From contig DUVH01000020.1 in assembly GCA_012841145.1 (NCBI GenBank), forward strand, positions 1 through 40,330: DNA of 40,330 nt. The letters run 5' to 3'. The DNA is from Clostridiaceae bacterium. Lineage in GTDB: Bacteria; Bacillota; Clostridia; Saccharofermentanales; DTU023. This document shows, piece by piece, positions 1 to 35,301 of this stretch. Made by a program: the position numbers and the translations under genes. Positions within the stretch are counted from its first letter, which is position 1. Every line of letters starts with the position of its first letter. Below the pieces are notes generated by a model. It did not search any database. It saw only the letters and a program-made list of their open reading frames with translations, and was not told the DNA's origin.

Positions 1-17
1 CAAGGGAGGGAAAATAA

Positions 18-434
18 ATGGCTATCTCACTAAAAAAACATACACCCGGAGCGGGGGAGCAAGAATCGGCTCGGCTGAATGACGTAAATAGCAACTGGGG
101 CACAATCGAACAGGCGATAAACGACTTGCAAGCAAATGCCAGTTTGTTGGCGATTGACGTAACGCCTAAGCCGGGATTCGCTGTTGCCGGAAAGCTATAT
201 AAAGTTGGCCGCATCTACATCATGCCGCTCACAATTAACGGCTCAATCCCCGCTGCGTGGACTCCGGTTGCGACAATTCCGTCAACTTATGCTCCGACGT
301 CAGGCATCTACGTCCCGGCTGCAACAGGTGGAGCGACCTTTGGGATGGGCAGTATATCTAATAACGGCACCATTAACGCCTATGCTCCCGGTGGTACAGG
401 GCAGATCAATTTCATTCTTGCGTGGGCTAAGTAG
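18..434 (+). CDS. Phage tail-fibre/tip protein, currently expressed form
   Basis: This 138-residue protein has a good ribosome site (GGGAGGG, bases 4-9) before its ATG. About 40 N-terminal residues (GEQESARLNDVNSNWGTIEQ) read like the short helical head of a small tail fibre. The remaining ~95 residues are rich in Gly, Thr, Ala and Pro, as in beta-structured receptor-binding tips. The junction is at Ala-Ser-Leu (bases 138-146). The same Ala-Ser-Leu codons open two silent cassettes on the opposite strand, so I read this gene as a constant head plus an exchangeable C-terminal module. The tail-fibre call is inferred from phage context, composition and cassette layout; I recognise no named family. 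The gene lies upstream of the lysis genes, the usual place for tail-tip genes. Confidence 0.65.
   Translation: MAISLKKHTPGAGEQESARLNDVNSNWGTIEQAINDLQANASLLAIDVTPKPGFAVAGKLYKVGRIYIMPLTINGSIPAAWTPVATIPSTYAPTSGIYVPAATGGATFGMGSISNNGTINAYAPGGTGQINFILAWAK
137..146 (+). repeat. Putative inversion site 1 (TGCCAGTTTG), constant/variable junction
   Basis: The 10-mer TGCCAGTTTG occurs here in plus orientation and twice more (704-713 and 985-994) in minus orientation. Site 1 and the 704-713 copy share one more base (T). The reading frame is GCC AGT TTG (Ala-Ser-Leu). Conserved in-frame copies at the start of each alternative C-terminal module are what a site-specific recombination site inside a shufflon should look like. 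Confidence 0.65.
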
Positions 435-451
435 CAGCTCTCGCGGCAGTC

Positions 452-712
452 TCACGCCTTCCTAAACCACACCTTGACCGCGACGTACACATATGTTGGC
501 AGCGGCGAGGCGTCGGGAGAACTGAACAACATTTGATATTTGCCAAATTGAAAGGTGTTGCGATACAGCACAACCGCGGCGTTGCTCGACCACTGCGTAA
601 TGGCGGCGTCAGCAACGAATCCAGCAGGAACGCTAATGTTGAAGTGGATTTCTGCACTTGTTCCGTCGCCGTTTTTGGTGTCGGTCACGTAATGCAATCC
701 AGACAAACTGGC
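452..712 (-). CDS. Silent tail-fibre C-terminal cassette A
   Basis: This open frame of 87 codons, stop included, starts at the Ala-Ser-Leu codons of inversion site 2 and runs leftward to a TGA at 452-454. There is no ribosome site or ATG at its start, and an in-frame TGA lies just upstream (725-727), so it cannot be translated on its own. It contains beta-rich sequence typical of fibre tips (ISVPAGFVADAAITQW, LPTYVYVAVKVWF). It is close in length to the expressed module and ends only 17 bp from it, tail to tail. Inverting the segment between sites 1 and 2 would fuse it in frame to the 40-residue head of the gene at 18-434. I see no sign that it is a decayed gene. Confidence 0.6.
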   Translation of the reverse strand, partial: ASLSGLHYVTDTKNGDGTSAEIHFNISVPAGFVADAAITQWSSNAAVVLYRNTFQFGKYQMLFSSPDASPLPTYVYVAVKVWFRKA

Positions 713-713
713 A
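704..713 (-). repeat. Putative inversion site 2 (TGCCAGTTTG on minus strand)
   Basis: The plus strand reads CAAACTGGCA. On the minus strand this is the first codon group (Ala-Ser-Leu) of cassette A. It begins 1-2 bases after the TAA stop of cassette B (715-717), so the two silent cassettes are packed with almost no spacer. Confidence 0.62.
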
Positions 714-714
714 G

Positions 715-993
715 TTACATAATCTCAAGAACAACTAAGTGAGTCCATGTGCTGAGCGGGAAATCAAGGATGTTAGGAGAGGAGGATGAATTGATTGTCG
801 GGGTAAAGGATGATGTTCCGTACAGCAGATTAAGCCTCCACTGATTGCTATGCCAATTAAGCGTTCCCATCCATGTGCCGATGTAGCCGACCCCCGTTAA
901 AAAGATTAAATATTCTCTGCCGGGATATATTTCTACGCTCACTGGATCGTAACCGAAGCTTTTCAAGGCGCATCGAACATTAAGCAAACTGGC
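715..993 (-). CDS. Silent tail-fibre C-terminal cassette B
   Basis: This open frame of 93 codons, stop included, begins at the Ala-Ser-Leu codons of inversion site 3 and ends in TAA at 715-717. It has no ribosome site; its only possible start is the TTG inside the repeat. Immediately upstream on the same strand is the stop codon of the recombinase gene. The sequence (VSVEIYPGREYLIFLTGVGY, WRLNLLYGTSSFTP) suggests a compact beta domain unrelated in sequence to cassette A and to the expressed module but of similar size. Inversion between sites 1 and 3 would join it in frame to the constant head. The function is inferred from layout only. Confidence 0.6.
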   Translation of the reverse strand, partial: ASLLNVRCALKSFGYDPVSVEIYPGREYLIFLTGVGYIGTWMGTLNWHSNQWRLNLLYGTSSFTPTINSSSSPNILDFPLSTWTHLVVLEIM

Positions 994-994
994 A
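985..994 (-). repeat. Putative inversion site 3 (TGCCAGTTTG on minus strand)
   Basis: The plus strand reads CAAACTGGCA. On the minus strand the site sits four bases after the TAG stop (999-1001) of the recombinase and starts cassette B in the frame GCC AGT TTG. It is inverted relative to site 1, so recombination with site 1 would invert rather than delete DNA. Confidence 0.62.
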
Positions 995-998
995 ATCG

Positions 999-1865
999 CT
1001 AAAACTCGGCCATTGGATGACTCTCCATCGCGGCGATGACCTGATCGCTCACGACGTGGGTATAAATTTCCGTAGTGGCGATGGACGCATGCCCTAGGAT
1101 TGACTGTAAGGCTCGGATATCGACATGCCCATATCGGTACAGCAGAGTCGCCGCCGTATGCCTTAACTTATGGGTGGATAAGTGGCCTAGTCCGACCTTG
1201 ACAAGCTCTAGCTTGACCACGGATGCGAGGGACGACGGGTGTAAGCCTTGTCCTTGCTTGGAGACGATCAAGTGACCGGAGCCATGACCGCGCTTACCGA
1301 GCCACAGTCGCAAAGCGCGTTGGCATGAGTTATTAAGATACACGTATCGCTCTTTACCACCCTTACCAACTACACGGATGGCGTCGTCGTAGACGTCGTG
1401 CATCTGTATGCCGGCAAGCTCGGAGAGCCGGAAGCCGCAGTTAATGTACAAGATTATTACAAGCGTATTGCGGCGCCGATAAAAAAGATCGTCACGCGAC
1501 CGAGCAGAGCGGACAAGTGCCTTAGCGTCATCTAACGAGAGATAGACAGGGAGCGACCGACTGATCTTAGGCCGCGGCATACCTGCGACGGGGTTGTCGG
1601 AGCGATGTCCGGCGTCAACACACCAAGCAAAAAAAGTCCGCAATGTACTGATTTTTCTCGCTCTGGTGGCGGCTGACCGCTCTGAGCATGACTCGATGTA
1701 TCGCCTGACATCTGATCGCATGGCGAGCATGAGCACTTCGTCAACAGGGAGGCCCGGCTCGAGCCAAGCTGCAAAGTATCTAATTTCTTTGGCGTACTCG
1801 ACGCAAGTACGATCAGCGCGACCAAGGACAGCAGAAAAGTAAACAACAAAACTATTTATCAACAT
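999..1865 (-). CDS. Tyrosine recombinase, probably the tail-fibre cassette invertase
   Basis: This 288-residue protein has the two-domain layout of XerC/XerD-type recombinases: an N-terminal SAM-like core-binding domain (about 1-95) and a catalytic domain (about 105-285). The catalytic signature is visible: Arg in CGFRLSELAG, Lys in GKGGKERYVYL, HxxR in HKLRHTAATLL, and His/Tyr in LGHASIATTEIYTHV. The ATG at 1865 follows an AGGAGGG site. The gene reads away from the lysis genes and ends right against inversion site 3. A phage integrase normally lies next to attP, but this gene is 3 kb from attR, behind the lysis genes, and directly beside three matching repeats in a tail gene. I therefore infer a shufflon-type role like that of Rci. 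A role in prophage integration cannot be excluded. Confidence 0.85.
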   Translation of the reverse strand: MLINSFVVYFSAVLGRADRTCVEYAKEIRYFAAWLEPGLPVDEVLMLAMRSDVRRYIESCSERSAATRARKISTLRTFFAWCVDAGHRSDNPVAGMPRPKISRSLPVYLSLDDAKALVRSARSRDDLFYRRRNTLVIILYINCGFRLSELAGIQMHDVYDDAIRVVGKGGKERYVYLNNSCQRALRLWLGKRGHGSGHLIVSKQGQGLHPSSLASVVKLELVKVGLGHLSTHKLRHTAATLLYRYGHVDIRALQSILGHASIATTEIYTHVVSDQVIAAMESHPMAEF

Positions 1866-1901: not shown

Positions 1902-1959
1902 ATATGCACGGTGTTAAACGTGAACTAATCACATGAACATAAATTAAGGAGGTGCGTTG

Positions 1960-2820
1960 ATGAACCTTAAAAAACTAATTTTTGCCAATTCCGACTGTTA
2001 CAAGGAAGGCATGGCGAAAAAACAATTTATCAAGCCTGTTGGAATTATGCTGCATTCGACGGGCGCGAATAATCCGTGGCTCAAGCGCTATGTCGGCCCC
2101 GACGACGGTCTGCTTGGGAAGAATCGATACGGCAACCACTGGAACAAGCACCGAACGCGGCGCGTCTGTTACCACGCGTTTGTCGGCAAGCTCAATGATG
2201 GCTCGATAGCGTCCTACCAGGTTTTGCCTTGGGACTTACGCGGTTGGCACTCGGGATCGGGGAAGAACGGCAACGGGAACAGTCTCGGGTACATCGGTAT
2301 CTGCATTTGTGAGGATAACCTCAAGGACAAAGCGTATGCGATGGCCGCTTACAAGGAGGCTTGCGAGCTATCGGCGCACATCTGCGAGCTATACAACCTC
2401 GATCCCATGAAGATCATCGACCACGCGGAAGGGTACAGACTCAGAATCGCGTCGAATCACGGCGATGTGCGGCATTGGCTCGGCAAGTACGGGATCACGC
2501 TCGACAGGATTAGGCAGGACGTTAAGGCGCTCATGGCGAAGCCTGAACCGAAGCCGACACCGACACCAAAACCAACGGAGGAAGAAAAAGTGAAAGAGTG
2601 GCAGAAAAAGAATACACTCAAGCTCGGCTCCAAGAATCCCGTTGTGGGGTACTTGCAGGCGTACTTGATGAGCAACGGGTACACAGACGACAACAAAATG
2701 GTTGCCGATGACGATTTTGGTTCACTAACCGACAAAATGTTACGTCAGTACCAGGAAGACAAAAAATTGTTTGTGGACGGTATTTGTGGCCCGCAAACAT
2801 GGAGGGCGATCATGAAATGA
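1960..2820 (+). CDS. Phage endolysin: N-acetylmuramoyl-L-alanine amidase with peptidoglycan-binding domain
   Basis: The 286-residue enzyme should cut the amide bond between muramic acid and the stem peptide during lysis. Residues about 25-170 form an Amidase_2-type domain: GIMLHSTGANNP carries the first zinc-ligand His (about residue 32), and IDHAEGY and ASNHGDVRHW hold the later His/Asp positions typical of clostridial phage amidases. A Pro/Thr/Lys linker (KPEPKPTPTPKPTEEEK) leads to a C-terminal PG_binding_1 domain (LGSKNPVVGYLQAYL, FGSLTDKMLRQYQ, VDGICGPQTW). The ATG at 1960 is preferred over the TTG just before it because AAGGAGG (1947-1953) is correctly spaced. There is no signal peptide, so export depends on the holin encoded downstream. 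The stop overlaps the next start. Confidence 0.92.
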   Translation: MNLKKLIFANSDCYKEGMAKKQFIKPVGIMLHSTGANNPWLKRYVGPDDGLLGKNRYGNHWNKHRTRRVCYHAFVGKLNDGSIASYQVLPWDLRGWHSGSGKNGNGNSLGYIGICICEDNLKDKAYAMAAYKEACELSAHICELYNLDPMKIIDHAEGYRLRIASNHGDVRHWLGKYGITLDRIRQDVKALMAKPEPKPTPTPKPTEEEKVKEWQKKNTLKLGSKNPVVGYLQAYLMSNGYTDDNKMVADDDFGSLTDKMLRQYQEDKKLFVDGICGPQTWRAIMK

Positions 2821-3292: not shown

Positions 3293-3589
3293 ATGGACTG
3301 GAACGCATTTATTGTGCCGGTTGTTTTTATACTGGTTGAGTTGGTCAAGTTGAAAATCAAGGACAAGACATGGTTGCCGCATATCGCAGTTGTCCTTGGC
3401 ATGGCTTTGGGTGCGGCGTATGCCGTCTATTTTAAGCACGACCTGTTTATCCATATCGTTATGGGATTGATTTTCGGTGGCGCGGCGGCGGGCATCTATG
3501 ACGGCGCAAAAGCAGCCGGTATTTATGACGCTGTAAAAGAAGGACTGTCGAAAATCAAAAACATCGGCAAGAACGAAGACCTCGATTAA
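3293..3589 (+). CDS. Phage holin-like membrane protein
   Basis: This 98-residue protein has about three hydrophobic segments: residues 5-20 (IVPVVFILVELVKL), 30-47 (IAVVLGMALGAAYAVYF) and 52-68 (IHIVMGLIFGGAAAGIY). A charged tail ends KNIGKNEDLD. Small size, multiple membrane spans, a charged C-terminus and a place directly behind the endolysin are the usual marks of holins, which open the membrane so that the signal-less endolysin can reach the wall. The ATG at 3293 has AAGGAG nine bases upstream. Its exact holin family was not determined. Confidence 0.78.
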   Translation: MDWNAFIVPVVFILVELVKLKIKDKTWLPHIAVVLGMALGAAYAVYFKHDLFIHIVMGLIFGGAAAGIYDGAKAAGIYDAVKEGLSKIKNIGKNEDLD

Positions 3590-3684: not shown

Positions 3685-4713
3685 ATGAGCATCGCAGATA
3701 AATCGCTCACCATCGACGTATGGGGGAGCGTTACATCACTGACGCTGATCCAAGGCGAATCGGCAGGGCGCAAACTAACCTATGCGATCACGAACGGAAG
3801 CACGCCGATTGACCTCACAGGACGGTCGGTTCGGCTGTTCGTCGTTAAGCCGGACGGCATGGTTGTGTACGCGAATTGCGACATCGAGGACGCGGCCGAG
3901 GGCAAGGTGTCCTTCGTCGTGTCGTCGCAGATGGTCGCCGTGAGCGGCCTAGGTTCAGGCGAATTCCACGTGATTGACGCAGACGGCACGATGTTAAAAA
4001 CGCCTAAAATCGGTATCGCCATCGAGCCGTCTCACGATGTAGACGGAGCGGTCGAGAGCAGCAACGAGTTCTCCGTGCTGGTTGATCTGATTAACTCGAT
4101 ACCGGGCGGCAGGGTGTTCTCATCCGGCAGACCGGACAAACCGGAAACGACGATATTCGCCGCTGAAGAACTGGACGCCATGCCGATCGGAACGGAATTT
4201 GTTTCGACAGACGGCGCTAACGTTGGTGCATGGGTGTGGACGAAGTTTGGTCGGGCAGACGAGCCTAGCACGCCAGCCACGGCTAAGGGTTGGACTGTGA
4301 CCTCCGGCGATACTGGCAATGTGATCGTCACACCGACTAATGTCACAGGCGGAGCTAAGATCGTGTTCCGGCGGGTGAACAACACAATCTTTTCGAGCCT
4401 TGGCTTCCAAGGGCCTTGGGGAACGTTTGGGATCGACGAAAACGCTATTGCCCTAGAAGGCACTAAGTTTGAACTGGGTATCACACCGCAAGGTTTTGGC
4501 ACTAACATTGCGCAGACGATGCTGTTATCGAGGGATGGCAAAGAGATGATAATCGACGCCATCTACAACGTATTGACGCGGACTCGTGACGGCGGCAAGA
4601 TTCAGATTAGATGCAAAGACGCGACCGCCGCCAACAATCTGAAAGGGCAGACATTGCTAAGAGCGGCGTCGATTCGATGGGTGACGAATGAGCCGTGGCC
4701 GGAAAGCTTATAA
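3685..4713 (+). CDS. BppU-family phage baseplate upper protein
   Basis: The first ~120 of 342 residues match the pattern of the BppU N-terminal domain: a TLIQGESAGRKLTY strand, IDLTGRSVRLFVVKPDG, EGKVSFVVSSQMVAVSGLGSGEFHVIDADG, then a closing strand TPKIGIAIEP. In Lactococcus-type phages this domain fixes receptor-binding proteins onto the baseplate. The rest (about 140-342) is a Gly/Thr/Asn-rich beta region with FVSTDGANVGAWVWTKFG, probably a spike or fibre portion. AGGAGG precedes the ATG. A baseplate gene behind the lysis cassette rather than with the tail genes is seen in some Firmicutes phages. It could be a second adhesion module that works with the switchable fibre at 18-434. Confidence 0.75.
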   Translation: MSIADKSLTIDVWGSVTSLTLIQGESAGRKLTYAITNGSTPIDLTGRSVRLFVVKPDGMVVYANCDIEDAAEGKVSFVVSSQMVAVSGLGSGEFHVIDADGTMLKTPKIGIAIEPSHDVDGAVESSNEFSVLVDLINSIPGGRVFSSGRPDKPETTIFAAEELDAMPIGTEFVSTDGANVGAWVWTKFGRADEPSTPATAKGWTVTSGDTGNVIVTPTNVTGGAKIVFRRVNNTIFSSLGFQGPWGTFGIDENAIALEGTKFELGITPQGFGTNIAQTMLLSRDGKEMIIDAIYNVLTRTRDGGKIQIRCKDATAANNLKGQTLLRAASIRWVTNEPWPESL

Positions 4714-4835: not shown

Positions 4836-4885
4836 ATGTCGGATCACAATTTGTGGTCTGTGGATTGAAATCATTGTATTTATAA
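4836..4885 (+). repeat. CRISPR-like repeat unit 1
   Basis: ATGTC (4836-4840), then the stem GATCACA (4842-4848) pairing with TGTGGTC (4852-4858), then TGTGGATTGAAAT (4859-4871) and CATTGTATTTATAA. The stem bases differ from unit 2 but pairing is kept. Confidence 0.6.
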
Positions 4886-4923
4886 GCGAGAATGGTGTAA
4901 TCTACAAACTGAAAGCATCGTTC

Positions 4924-4970
4924 ATGTCAAGCCGGCAACGGCTTGTGGATTGAAATTATTGTATCTACAA
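4924..4970 (+). repeat. CRISPR-like repeat unit 2
   Basis: ATGTC (4924-4928), stem AAGCCG (4929-4934) with CGGCTT (4939-4944) closed by a GCAA tetraloop, then TGTGGATTGAAAT ending at 4956 and TATTGTATCTACAA. From GTC to GAAAT it is 31 nt, with the architecture of a type I-C repeat. Confidence 0.65.
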
Positions 4971-4979
4971 TGCAGAAAA

Positions 4980-5148: not shown

Positions 5149-5192
5149 CTCTGACTCAGTTTGTCCGGGTTCAAATCCTGGATCGGCAGCCA
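5149..5192 (+). other. attR: 3' half of a tRNA-Gln(CTG) gene
   Basis: The segment begins in an anticodon loop (CTCTGAC, anticodon CTG at 5151-5153). It continues with the 3' anticodon stem TCAGT, a variable loop TTGT, a T-arm (CCGGG, TTCAAAT, CCTGG), the acceptor strand ATCGGCA, discriminator G and CCA (5190-5192). The required 5' anticodon strand ACTGA is absent (TTTTC instead), so the tRNA is not intact. A U1-type acceptor and G73 suit tRNA-Gln. Many prophages integrate into the 3' half of a tRNA and leave exactly such a fragment at their far end, so this marks the phage/host boundary. The intact tRNA-Gln should be at attL, outside the window. Confidence 0.8.
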
Positions 5193-9198: not shown

Positions 9199-10572
9199 AT
9201 GTCAAGATTGTTTGGAACAGATGGAGTGCGCGGTGTTGCAAATCGCGATTTGACTCCCGAATTAGCATATTTGCTCGGGTTCGCCGGAGCTCATGTTTTG
9301 ACGGAGGAGACTCGTCATAAGCCGACGATCGTTGTCGGTGAGGATACGCGCGTCTCTTGCGGAATGTTGGGGTCGGCGCTGATTGCAGGTATTACCTGTG
9401 CCGGTGCCGATGTCCTGCATGTCGGAGTAATACCGACACCCGGTGTCGCTTGGCTGACACGGAGACTCAGGGCGGATGCTGGCATTATGATCTCCGCGTC
9501 TCATAATTCATTTGAATACAACGGGATTAAGTTTTTTTCCGGAGGTGGATTTAAATTGCCCGATGAAACGGAAGACGCGATTGAAGCACTTATAAACGAT
9601 TCGGATTTTTTAGATGAGGATCGCCCTACGGGTGAAAAGATTGGGAAACTTATTCGCTACGATCAAGGCGCCGATGAATATCGCGAACACCTGCAATCGA
9701 TCGCGGGACTCGACCTTACAGGCATGACAATCGTTGTCGATTGTGCGCACGGAGCAAGTTATGCGGTTGCTCCCAAGCTTTTTAATGATTTAGGCGCGGA
9801 TGTAATCGCTGTCGGTGTGAACCCCAACGGATACAACATTAATCACGAATGCGGTTCGACGCATGTCGGGAAATTGTCGAGTGTCGTGCGCGAATATCAC
9901 GCTCATATCGGTCTTGCCTTTGACGGTGACGCCGATCGGCTGATCGCCGTCGATGATCAGGGAGATATCTGCAATGGCGACGTTATGCTCGCGATACTTG
10001 CTCGTGATCTCGACAGGCAGGGTAAACTGACGAAAAAGGCGATTGTCGCGACAGTTATGAGCAATCTCGGTCTTGAGCATATGACAAATGCTGCCGGTTA
10101 TGAACTGATCAGGACGCAGGTCGGTGACCGCTATGTCCTTGAGCGCATGTTGGCGGACGGATACGTGCTCGGCGGTGAGCAGAGCGGCCACATCATTCTC
10201 TTGGAGAACTCAACGACGGGAGATGGAGTTCTGACAGCTATCCGTCTGCTCAGCGCCATTCGGAATGAAGGCAAAGGCGCGCTCCTCAGCGAAATGAGAA
10301 AGATTATGACGACACTCCCTCAGATCATCGTCAACGCTCACATCCCGGACGAGCTGAAACAAATTACGATGAACCATTGCGACGTTACGGAGGCGATCAA
10401 AGAGAAAGAGAATGTTCTCGGAAGTGATGGGCGGATCGTCGTTCGTCCGTCGGGGACGGAACCTCTCATCAGAGTCATGATCGAGGGTGTCGATCAGACG
10501 CAGATTACCGATATGGCTCACGAGCTCCGCGAAGTGATCGAGACTGTCTGTGCGACGTTCAGTGAGGAATAA
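9199..10572 (+). CDS. glmM: Phosphoglucosamine mutase GlmM
   Basis: The 457-residue cytoplasmic enzyme converts glucosamine-6-phosphate to glucosamine-1-phosphate for UDP-GlcNAc and cell-wall synthesis. All four phosphohexomutase domains are evident: N-terminal FGTDGVRG, the phosphoserine loop GIMISASHNS (Ser near residue 101), the metal loop FDGDADR (near 243), the sugar loop GGEQSGHII, and the phosphate loop VRPSGTEPLIRV near the end. Length is normal (about 450). It directly follows cdaA; GlmM is known to bind and restrain CdaA in Bacillus and Lactococcus, so the pairing ties c-di-AMP to wall precursor supply. ATG with AGAGGG upstream. Confidence 0.97.
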   Translation: MSRLFGTDGVRGVANRDLTPELAYLLGFAGAHVLTEETRHKPTIVVGEDTRVSCGMLGSALIAGITCAGADVLHVGVIPTPGVAWLTRRLRADAGIMISASHNSFEYNGIKFFSGGGFKLPDETEDAIEALINDSDFLDEDRPTGEKIGKLIRYDQGADEYREHLQSIAGLDLTGMTIVVDCAHGASYAVAPKLFNDLGADVIAVGVNPNGYNINHECGSTHVGKLSSVVREYHAHIGLAFDGDADRLIAVDDQGDICNGDVMLAILARDLDRQGKLTKKAIVATVMSNLGLEHMTNAAGYELIRTQVGDRYVLERMLADGYVLGGEQSGHIILLENSTTGDGVLTAIRLLSAIRNEGKGALLSEMRKIMTTLPQIIVNAHIPDELKQITMNHCDVTEAIKEKENVLGSDGRIVVRPSGTEPLIRVMIEGVDQTQITDMAHELREVIETVCATFSEE

Positions 10573-33210: not shown

Positions 33211-35301
33211 ATGAACAAACTGGCAGGCTATATTGTTAAATTCCGGGTCGTCATATTTTTTATATTCATTGCACTTATGGTCGTAAGTGTCTTTCTTGCT
33301 ATGAAAGTCAAGGTAAACTTTGACCTTGCATCTTATTTACCCAAGGATGCTCCGTCTACGATTGCTGTTGAAAAAATGGGCGAGGAGTTTAAGGAGTCGG
33401 TTCCCAATACTGAGGTCGGTTACCCCGTCGATAATCTTGCTGAAGCGTTGGAAATGAAGGAAAAGCTGCAATCGCTCGATTTTGTCGATGAGATCCTTTG
33501 GATGGATGACCAGCTCGATCTTGCCGTGCCGCTTGACCTTCATGATAATAAAATCGTAGAAGGGTTTTTGAAAGACGATATCGCGCTGTTTCAGCTGACG
33601 ATTGCCGACGATATCGATGTTCAGGAGGCCCTGATTGAGCTGGAGGAGCTCGTCGGCGAAGAGGGGCGCATACGCGGGGAGATCGTCGAACAATCATTCA
33701 TGCAGCGCGCCGTATCGTCGGAGATGACAATGATCGCGGCTGTCATGATTCCCGCCGCCTTGATTATCCTGCTTTTATCCACGCGCTCATGGCTGGAGCC
33801 GATTCTTTTCATGCTCGTTATTTCCGCGGGCGTGATCATTAATATGGGGTTAAACTCATTTGCTGCGGATGTCTCCTTTATCACGCAGGCGGTAAGTTCC
33901 GTGTTGCAGCTAGCTGTCTCGATGGACTATGCGATCTTCTTGTTGCATCGTTTCGGCGACTACCGCGCGGCGGGGATAGAACCGAAGGAGGCGATGCGAC
34001 AGGCTATTGTGAAGAGTTTTGCTCCTGTCAATGCCTCAGCTTTGACGACGGTTTTTGGTTTCCTTGCGCTTGTTTTTATGCGCTTCGGTATCGGCAAAGA
34101 CTTGGGACTCGTGCTTGCGCGCGGCGTGATAGTCAGCCTGATTACTGTTTTTCTGCTGTTACCCTCGCTTGCGTTGCTGAGTTACAAACTGATCGACAAG
34201 ACAACACATCGCTCTCTTATCCCTTCATTTAAGGGGTTTAGCCGCGTCGTGACGCGCATCGCTATCCCCATTGTGGTATTGGCTCTGGTGGTTGCCGTTC
34301 CGGCGTACATCGGACAGAGATCGAATGACTTCCTTTATGGAGGACGTTCGTATCCTGAGGATTCGCGTGCCGGGAACGACGCCGCTTTCTTGAAGGACAC
34401 TTTCGGCGACAACATGCAGATGGCGCTGCTTGTCCCGAAAGGAGAGTGGGCGACGGAGCAGGAGCTGATTAAAGAATTGGAAGCACAACCCGAGATGAAG
34501 TCGGTCATCGGCTACGTCAACATGGTGGGAGCGGGCGTACCTGTCGATCTTTTGCCGGAACGCATGATCTCTCCACTTATCTCGGAGCACTACAGTCGCA
34601 TCGTGCTGATCGCCGACTCACCCGACGAAAGTCCCGAGACATTCGAACTCGCGGAGAGACTTCGAACTATTGTCGATAACGCATATCCTGAGGGTGATAC
34701 ATATCTCGCCGGCGCCAACGTTGTCCTGCTCGATATGAAAACGACAATTAATCACGATATGACGATTGTTAACGGTCTCGCGATTCTCGCCATATTCTTG
34801 GTAATCATGTTGACATTCAGGTCACTCGTCATACCGATCGTACTCGTCCTGACCATTGAGCTAGCCGTATGGATCAATCTCTCCATACCTTACTTTACGG
34901 GAACATCGCTCGCCTTTATCGGTTACCTCGTTATCAGTACGGTGCAGTTGGGGGCGACGGTCGACTACGGGATCCTGATGACGCAACATTATCTAGATCA
35001 TCGACAAGTCATGGGTCGCAAGGAAGCGTCGATCAAGACGATCCAATCGGTGGCCGGTTCCATTATTCCGCCGGCAATCATTCTATCGACCGCAGGTTAC
35101 CTGCTCTACCTTATATCGAGTATCCAAGTCGTTAAAGAGCTCGGTCACGTGCTCGGGCGCGGAGCTTTGTTATCACTTCTCATCGTCCTCATACTGTTGC
35201 CGAACTTGCTCTATGTGACGGATCGAGCCATTGAAAAAACAACCTGGAAGCTTCGTATGCTTCCGGACAGACCGACCAAAAAGTCTGGAGGGAAAAATTG
35301 A
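33211..35301 (+). CDS. MMPL/RND-family membrane transporter
   Basis: The protein of about 696 residues has two repeats of the RND fold. Each has one N-terminal helix, a large external domain and five clustered helices: helix about 10-28, external domain about 35-165, helices about 170-335; second external domain about 365-500 and helices about 510-680. The conserved stretches AVSMDYAIFLLHRFGDYR and GATVDYGILMTQHYLDHR carry the paired Asp-Tyr positions of MMPL proteins. The ATG at 33211 is chosen; a TTG nine bases earlier is in frame. The ribosome site is weak. It overlaps the next gene by 4 bp. Likely exports lipids or other envelope material; substrate unknown. Confidence 0.93.
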   Translation: MNKLAGYIVKFRVVIFFIFIALMVVSVFLAMKVKVNFDLASYLPKDAPSTIAVEKMGEEFKESVPNTEVGYPVDNLAEALEMKEKLQSLDFVDEILWMDDQLDLAVPLDLHDNKIVEGFLKDDIALFQLTIADDIDVQEALIELEELVGEEGRIRGEIVEQSFMQRAVSSEMTMIAAVMIPAALIILLLSTRSWLEPILFMLVISAGVIINMGLNSFAADVSFITQAVSSVLQLAVSMDYAIFLLHRFGDYRAAGIEPKEAMRQAIVKSFAPVNASALTTVFGFLALVFMRFGIGKDLGLVLARGVIVSLITVFLLLPSLALLSYKLIDKTTHRSLIPSFKGFSRVVTRIAIPIVVLALVVAVPAYIGQRSNDFLYGGRSYPEDSRAGNDAAFLKDTFGDNMQMALLVPKGEWATEQELIKELEAQPEMKSVIGYVNMVGAGVPVDLLPERMISPLISEHYSRIVLIADSPDESPETFELAERLRTIVDNAYPEGDTYLAGANVVLLDMKTTINHDMTIVNGLAILAIFLVIMLTFRSLVIPIVLVLTIELAVWINLSIPYFTGTSLAFIGYLVISTVQLGATVDYGILMTQHYLDHRQVMGRKEASIKTIQSVAGSIIPPAIILSTAGYLLYLISSIQVVKELGHVLGRGALLSLLIVLILLPNLLYVTDRAIEKTTWKLRMLPDRPTKKSGGKN

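Follow-up and report, generated by a model that had tools for sequence, protein, structure and literature searches.

A compact receptor-binding protein shufflon with an adjacent Xer-like tyrosine recombinase, proposed at the end of a Clostridiaceae prophage

Organisation of the locus and its repeated site

The window analysed in this work is a stretch of 40,330 nucleotides that constitutes a complete contig (C40) of a Clostridiaceae bacterium, whose genome comprises 1.57 Mb in 41 contigs. The first 5.2 kb of the window correspond to the right end of a prophage, where the gene order is receptor-binding protein (RBP) gene, cassettes, recombinase, endolysin, small coiled protein, holin, BppU-like baseplate gene and attR (Table 1). 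The switch locus itself covers about 2 kb (window 1-1865) and contains one stalk gene, three alternative tips and the adjacent recombinase gene. These elements are tightly packed, with 17 bases between the stop codon of tip 1 and that of cassette 2, and four bases between the recombinase stop codon and site 3; the preliminary description, made from the letters of this DNA, had already placed the end of a tyrosine recombinase gene at this distance from the site.

Table 1. Features of the prophage end contained in the window
Feature	Position	Strand	Remarks
RBP gene, present state	18..434	+	ATG and Shine-Dalgarno-like AAGGGAGGG; stalk codons 1-40 (18-137) fused to tip 1 (138-434)
Site 1 (stalk site)	137..146	+	Exact 10-mer; core TGCCAG 137-142; right arm TTTGTTGG 143-150; left arm CAAGCAAA 129-136
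Headless tip cassette 2	452..712	-	Open frame, 86 codons from site Ala to stop; no upstream start or Shine-Dalgarno
Site 2	704..713	-	Exact 10-mer; core TGCCAG; right arm TTTGTCTG; left arm without match
Headless tip cassette 3	715..993	-	92 codons from site Ala to stop; stop two bases short of site 2
Site 3 (recombinase side)	985..994	-	Exact 10-mer; core TGCCAG; right arm TTTGCTTA; left arm without match
Xer-like tyrosine recombinase, 288 aa, proposed invertase	999..1865	-	PF00589 97 bits, PF02899 37 bits
Endolysin	1957..2820	+	Amidase_2 and peptidoglycan-binding domain
Holin	3293..3589	+	phrog_1299, E 3.9e-16
Baseplate upper protein-like gene (BppU_N)	3685..4713	+	PF10651 52.4 bits (cut-off 23.1)
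attR, right prophage end	5149..5192	+	44-bp exact copy of the 3' part of tRNA-Gln (G000:C27:49918)

The contig breaks 17 bases ahead of the RBP start codon, which may represent an assembly break due to variation at the locus, although no sign of such variation was found. Between the BppU-like gene and attR there are two direct repeats of 34 nt (4859-4892 and 4944-4977) that are 82% identical (TGTGGATTGAAATYATTGTATYTA...), each one preceded by a small inverted repeat. They look like CRISPR repeats, and just these two are present in the genome and none in that of a relative (G011, see below).

The 10-mer TGCCAGTTTG was found once on the plus strand and twice on the minus strand of the locus, at the same positions as in the preliminary description, and each copy opens a module in the frame that encodes Ala-Ser-Leu, as had also been claimed. 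From the site's Ala codon onwards, the open modules comprise 98, 86 and 92 codons (about 95, 87 and 93 in that description). An ATG, at position 18, and a Shine-Dalgarno-like sequence are present only at the plus-strand module. In the minus-strand modules the first possible start past the upstream stop is a TTG that lies within the site or next to it and lacks a Shine-Dalgarno sequence, in agreement with the earlier statement that start codon, ribosome site and N-terminal head belong to the plus-strand module alone.

No other 10-mer was present three times in window 1-1000, and any thrice-present 10-mer appeared in just 3 of 3000 dinucleotide shuffles of this region. The genome contains six copies of the 10-mer, three of them at the locus; a fourth copy in the window, at 33216, is a stray one. 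The repeat is short, asymmetric, located at the start of each tip and rare elsewhere, as are the sites of the Rin-type phage shufflons considered below. A search of positions 1-2000 for promoter-like sequences gave no match to the consensus, which is a weak one for phages.

A related locus and the architecture of the sites

A second locus of the same design (L032) was found in contig C53 of G011, a genome of the same genus, whose recombinase is 88% identical to that of the window. The preliminary description had suggested a search of related prophages for the same site with other cassettes; L032 has a site changed by one base and no tip in common with the window. In L032 three headless cassettes run in the direction of the recombinase and are opposed to a stalk-tip gene; the four modules each open at TGCTAGTTTG in the Ala-Ser-Leu frame (9236, 9480 and 9727 on the plus strand, 10248 on the minus strand).

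All seven sites are exact within their own genome, and the one base that distinguishes the two forms is uniform within each genome, the T form being absent from the window and the C form from L032. Ser is encoded by AGT and Leu by TTG in all seven of these otherwise unrelated modules, indicating a constraint on the DNA and not on the protein alone. The putative crossover site has changed in concert between the genomes. Strand exchange by tyrosine recombinases needs matching cores, and we infer that a base uniform within and different between genomes is what a crossover core would be expected to show. In L032, the cassette nearest to the recombinase obtains its stop codon from the next site itself (ATA TGC TAG, 9480-9489), a stop that the C form of the window could not provide.

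The stalks of both loci are 56% identical across residues 1-45 and not past that point. On the recombinase side, nucleotide homology extends from position 1903 to 985 and stops exactly at the outer end of site 3 (985 corresponds to L032 9245). On either flank, then, the two loci cease to be homologous at the sites. Between the outer sites no similarity of the window to L032 was detectable, and none of the window tips matched any L032 tip by blastp. Two of the L032 cassettes are 36% alike, as would be expected of tips derived from a duplicated cassette.

When the seven sites were read as core plus arms, all of them contained TGCYAG, after which came TTTG and a pyrimidine. Right-arm scores of 9-11.7 with left-arm scores below zero were obtained for five of the seven, whereas both stalk sites were two-armed. 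A left arm that repeats the right-arm consensus in inverted form was present at these two only (CAAGCAAA in the window and GAAGCAAA in L032): the fraction of background 8-mers scoring as high as the left arm was 0.0000 and 0.0004 at the stalk sites, compared with 0.05-0.14 at the other five. On this reading, TGCYAG may be a crossover core of 6 bp and TTTGYTTG the conserved right arm next to it, and only the stalk site would have an inverted left arm as well. The core can be likened to the 6-bp central region that lies between the arms of dif sites. We take the two-armed stalk site as a working hypothesis, because just two stalk sites are known (n=2) and both left arms overlap a conserved coding stretch (Leu-Gln/Glu-Ala-Asn). 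The preliminary description had proposed to compare the flanking bases for an Rci-like asymmetry; conserved core and right arm with a variable left arm were indeed observed at the five cassette sites, but the stalk sites departed from this pattern. Ten conserved bases is short for a tyrosine recombinase, and this counts against a shufflon.

The G011 prophage begins right after a tRNA-Leu/tRNA-Met pair (L032 7170-7344) and not at tRNA-Gln. Beyond the shufflon and one peptidoglycan-binding domain, no genes in common with the prophage end of the window were detectable, and the shufflon seems to travel as a module between different prophages. When the recombinase was sought in 188 genomes of the order and 391 genomes of the class, it was found only in the window and in G011. 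No close relative appeared in viral contigs queried with the recombinase, RBP, baseplate and L032 tail proteins, and the RBPs had no match among annotated phages; the endolysin retrieved seven loci with 32-48% identity, and a scan of genome contigs gave one weak, unrelated match. Among phage contigs from human faeces whose recombinases are 29-39% identical, none contained a switch-like 10-mer repeated at least three times. The paired-site pattern was found in five stretches of the viral contigs, none of them with a relative of the recombinase and one of them a tandem repeat. An RBP match in another genome (G028) was rejected as a relative; it contains stop codons and sits in a repetitive protein.

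The recombinase, the receptor-binding protein and the proposed switch

The domains PF02899 and PF00589 span residues 3-271 of the 288-aa recombinase, which thus has core-binding and catalytic domains only. The protein ends 20 residues past the predicted catalytic Tyr268, and the extra C-terminal domain of Rci is absent. It scored 193.7 bits with the XerC model (cut-off 335.15) and 174.8 bits with the XerD model (cut-off 329.6), so that neither equivalog cut-off was reached. Its closest sequence relatives are the Xer proteins of the host's order, with ~36-42% identity; the host retains its own Xer, encoded in contig C1. In the tree the window and L032 recombinases formed a separate branch that grouped with Xer proteins (split 99/96) and not with Rin or the integrases; Rin fell with the integrases, on a long branch whose own placement is unsure.

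The AF2 model of the 138-aa RBP, folded by itself, contained helices at residues 12-26 and 30-40 and a beta domain at 42-137 (mean pLDDT 73), and the site codons 41-43 fell on the predicted junction between helix and beta domain. Foldseek comparison with solved structures retrieved gp15 of Listeria phage PSA (E 4.6e-4) and the head domains of the lactococcal p2 and TP901-1 RBPs, and the viral library returned receptor-binding and baseplate proteins. Since the E-values were moderate and the model was built from one sequence, the RBP fold of this protein is probable and not certain; the model of the L032 RBP (pLDDT 35) was left out. BppU bears the RBP in phage TP901-1, and the presence of a BppU-like gene in this prophage agrees with the RBP assignment. 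Depending on the tip, the predicted RBPs would have 138, 126 or 132 aa in the window and 130, 123, 122 or 124 aa in L032.

Taken together, it is very probable that window 1-1865 is a compact RBP shufflon, in which the adjacent Xer-derived tyrosine recombinase fuses alternative tips to one stalk by inversion. The core of the preliminary description, a tip-swapping inversion switch with an adjacent tyrosine recombinase in a prophage, is strongly supported by L032; action of the recombinase on these sites, the occurrence of inversion and a different receptor for each tip are inferred. The recombinase would pair the site at 137, in the RBP gene, with the opposed cassette site at 704 or 985, and the segment 137-713 or 137-994 would flip. 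The 40-residue helical stalk would gain another beta tip, and the frame would be kept, since Ala-Ser-Leu has the same register at every site. The stalk would retain the ATG and the left arm, the incoming cassette supplying the right arm and the tip, and successive inversions could reach all tips, three here and four in L032. The outcome would be a phage population with mixed host recognition. Cassette sites with a single arm might make inversion more likely than deletion, an argument also made for Rci.

A further suggestion, which we put forward with clear reservation, is that a chromosome-dimer-type Xer recombinase was turned by the phage into an autonomous invertase working with a two-armed stalk site and one-armed cassette sites. 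If true, the symmetry of the stalk site would steer the enzyme towards inversions between stalk and cassette and protect the cassettes from being deleted; this would resolve a question left open for Rin.

The locus could instead be a frozen relic, a former switch with an inactive recombinase or phage and cassettes that no longer move. The genomes and viral contigs searched yielded no second arrangement of these cassettes, and the prophage is split across at least two contigs and so may be incomplete. However, the recombinase is intact, and the comparison with the L032 copy (dS ~1.7, dN ~0.09, dN/dS ~0.05) shows purifying selection and therefore a recombinase that was kept working. All the cassettes are open, the sites have remained exact and the lysis genes read open, making a relic improbable.

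Phage integrases often adjoin attP, and a tyrosine recombinase beside short repeats might be taken for the prophage integrase, with repeats that are att-like or due to chance. Yet the prophage is inserted at tRNA-Gln, and in contig C27 the genes of a 407-aa phage integrase and of an S24/HTH repressor come after this tRNA gene (attL); the prophage thus has its own integrase and the recombinase at 999-1865 is a second enzyme. Moreover, attR lies 3.3 kb from the recombinase gene, the 10-mer is not part of the att core and the same layout occurs in L032 beside other tRNA genes, which leaves the integrase explanation very little room. Tail-tip genes often recombine between phages, but ordinary small tail or lysis genes assembled by mosaic exchange, with a repeat due to chance, are an extremely unlikely explanation in view of the shuffle test, the two minus-strand modules devoid of start codon and Shine-Dalgarno sequence, and the same design in L032 with its site changed in concert.

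Comparison with known systems

Gin, Cin and Min of Mu, P1 and p15B exchange phage tail-fibre C-termini by inversion, as proposed here, but they are serine recombinases (PMC6109161), while the enzyme of the window is a tyrosine recombinase (PF00589). The chromosomal XerC and XerD proteins are its closest relatives in sequence; in contrast to them, it falls far below both cut-offs, forms a separate branch with the L032 enzyme and is encoded inside a prophage.

The preliminary description had recognised the logic of the Rci shufflon of IncI plasmids. The kind of switch was right, but the nearest known system is the phage Rin shufflon, which agrees with the window locus in gene order, in tip size and in having a very short site. 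In Rci sites, core and right arm are conserved and the left arm varies, an asymmetry held to prevent deletion (PMC11852207). The proposed shufflon shares with Rci a tyrosine invertase, several C-terminal cassettes and, except at the stalk site, the conserved core and right arm with a variable left arm. The target of Rci is the PilV pilus adhesin, whereas here it would be a protein with a probable phage RBP fold among lysis and baseplate genes. Compared by description, Rci also differs in its 7-bp core, 12-bp right arm and extra C-terminal domain, which the recombinase of the window lacks (PMC11852207).

The Rin shufflon of Bifidobacterium dnaJ2 prophages has a constant N-terminus, tips of 95-100 residues, an 11-bp site, TTCCCTAACCC, and a tyrosine recombinase distinct from the integrase, and its inversion was detected in the DNA of virions as well as of lysogens (PMC6109161). 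Eggerthella lenta clade 1 prophages provide another case, in which the site has 8 bp (PMC8778435). The Bifidobacterium site was present in three IMG/VR contigs (L067 5886-6867, L068 5305-6840 and L069 88-1396) with the cassettes in differing arrangements, and the Rin recombinase sequence used here was read from L068, located by the published Rin site in the viral contigs. In L068 the outer two sites are both preceded by GGGA and the inner ones are not, which faintly resembles the stalk-site dyad described above.

Both systems have a constant RBP N-terminus with the site inside, headless variable C-termini of ~80-100 codons, a short asymmetric repeat before each tip (11 or 8 bp in Rin, 10 bp here), a tyrosine recombinase without an arm-binding domain at the far end and a separate integrase, and the tips of Rin, and probably also those here, are akin by fold to lactococcal phage RBPs. 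They differ in that the recombinase of the window is of the Xer lineage (194 bits with the XerC model against 56 bits for Rin, the two being ~25% identical over 181 residues), the site sequence is unrelated, the constant part has 40 residues instead of 168 and the expressed tip is not followed by a site. In the Bifidobacterium Rin inversion has been documented, while here it is deduced from sequence.

The locus of the window would work like Rin through another recombinase lineage and is new in recombinase lineage, site and stalk size. Given a recombinase of the Xer lineage and an unrelated site, the same solution probably arose more than once. As regards RBP-tip switches with tyrosine recombinases, the two papers found describe prophages of Bifidobacterium and Eggerthella, both Actinobacteria (PMC6109161, PMC8778435). 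With three tips in less than 1 kb, the present locus is small and tractable. Together with L032 it provides a natural experiment in which all copies of the site underwent the same change at one position of the putative core. It also makes testable the standing question of how an armless recombinase avoids deletions when it inverts DNA among many direct repeats.
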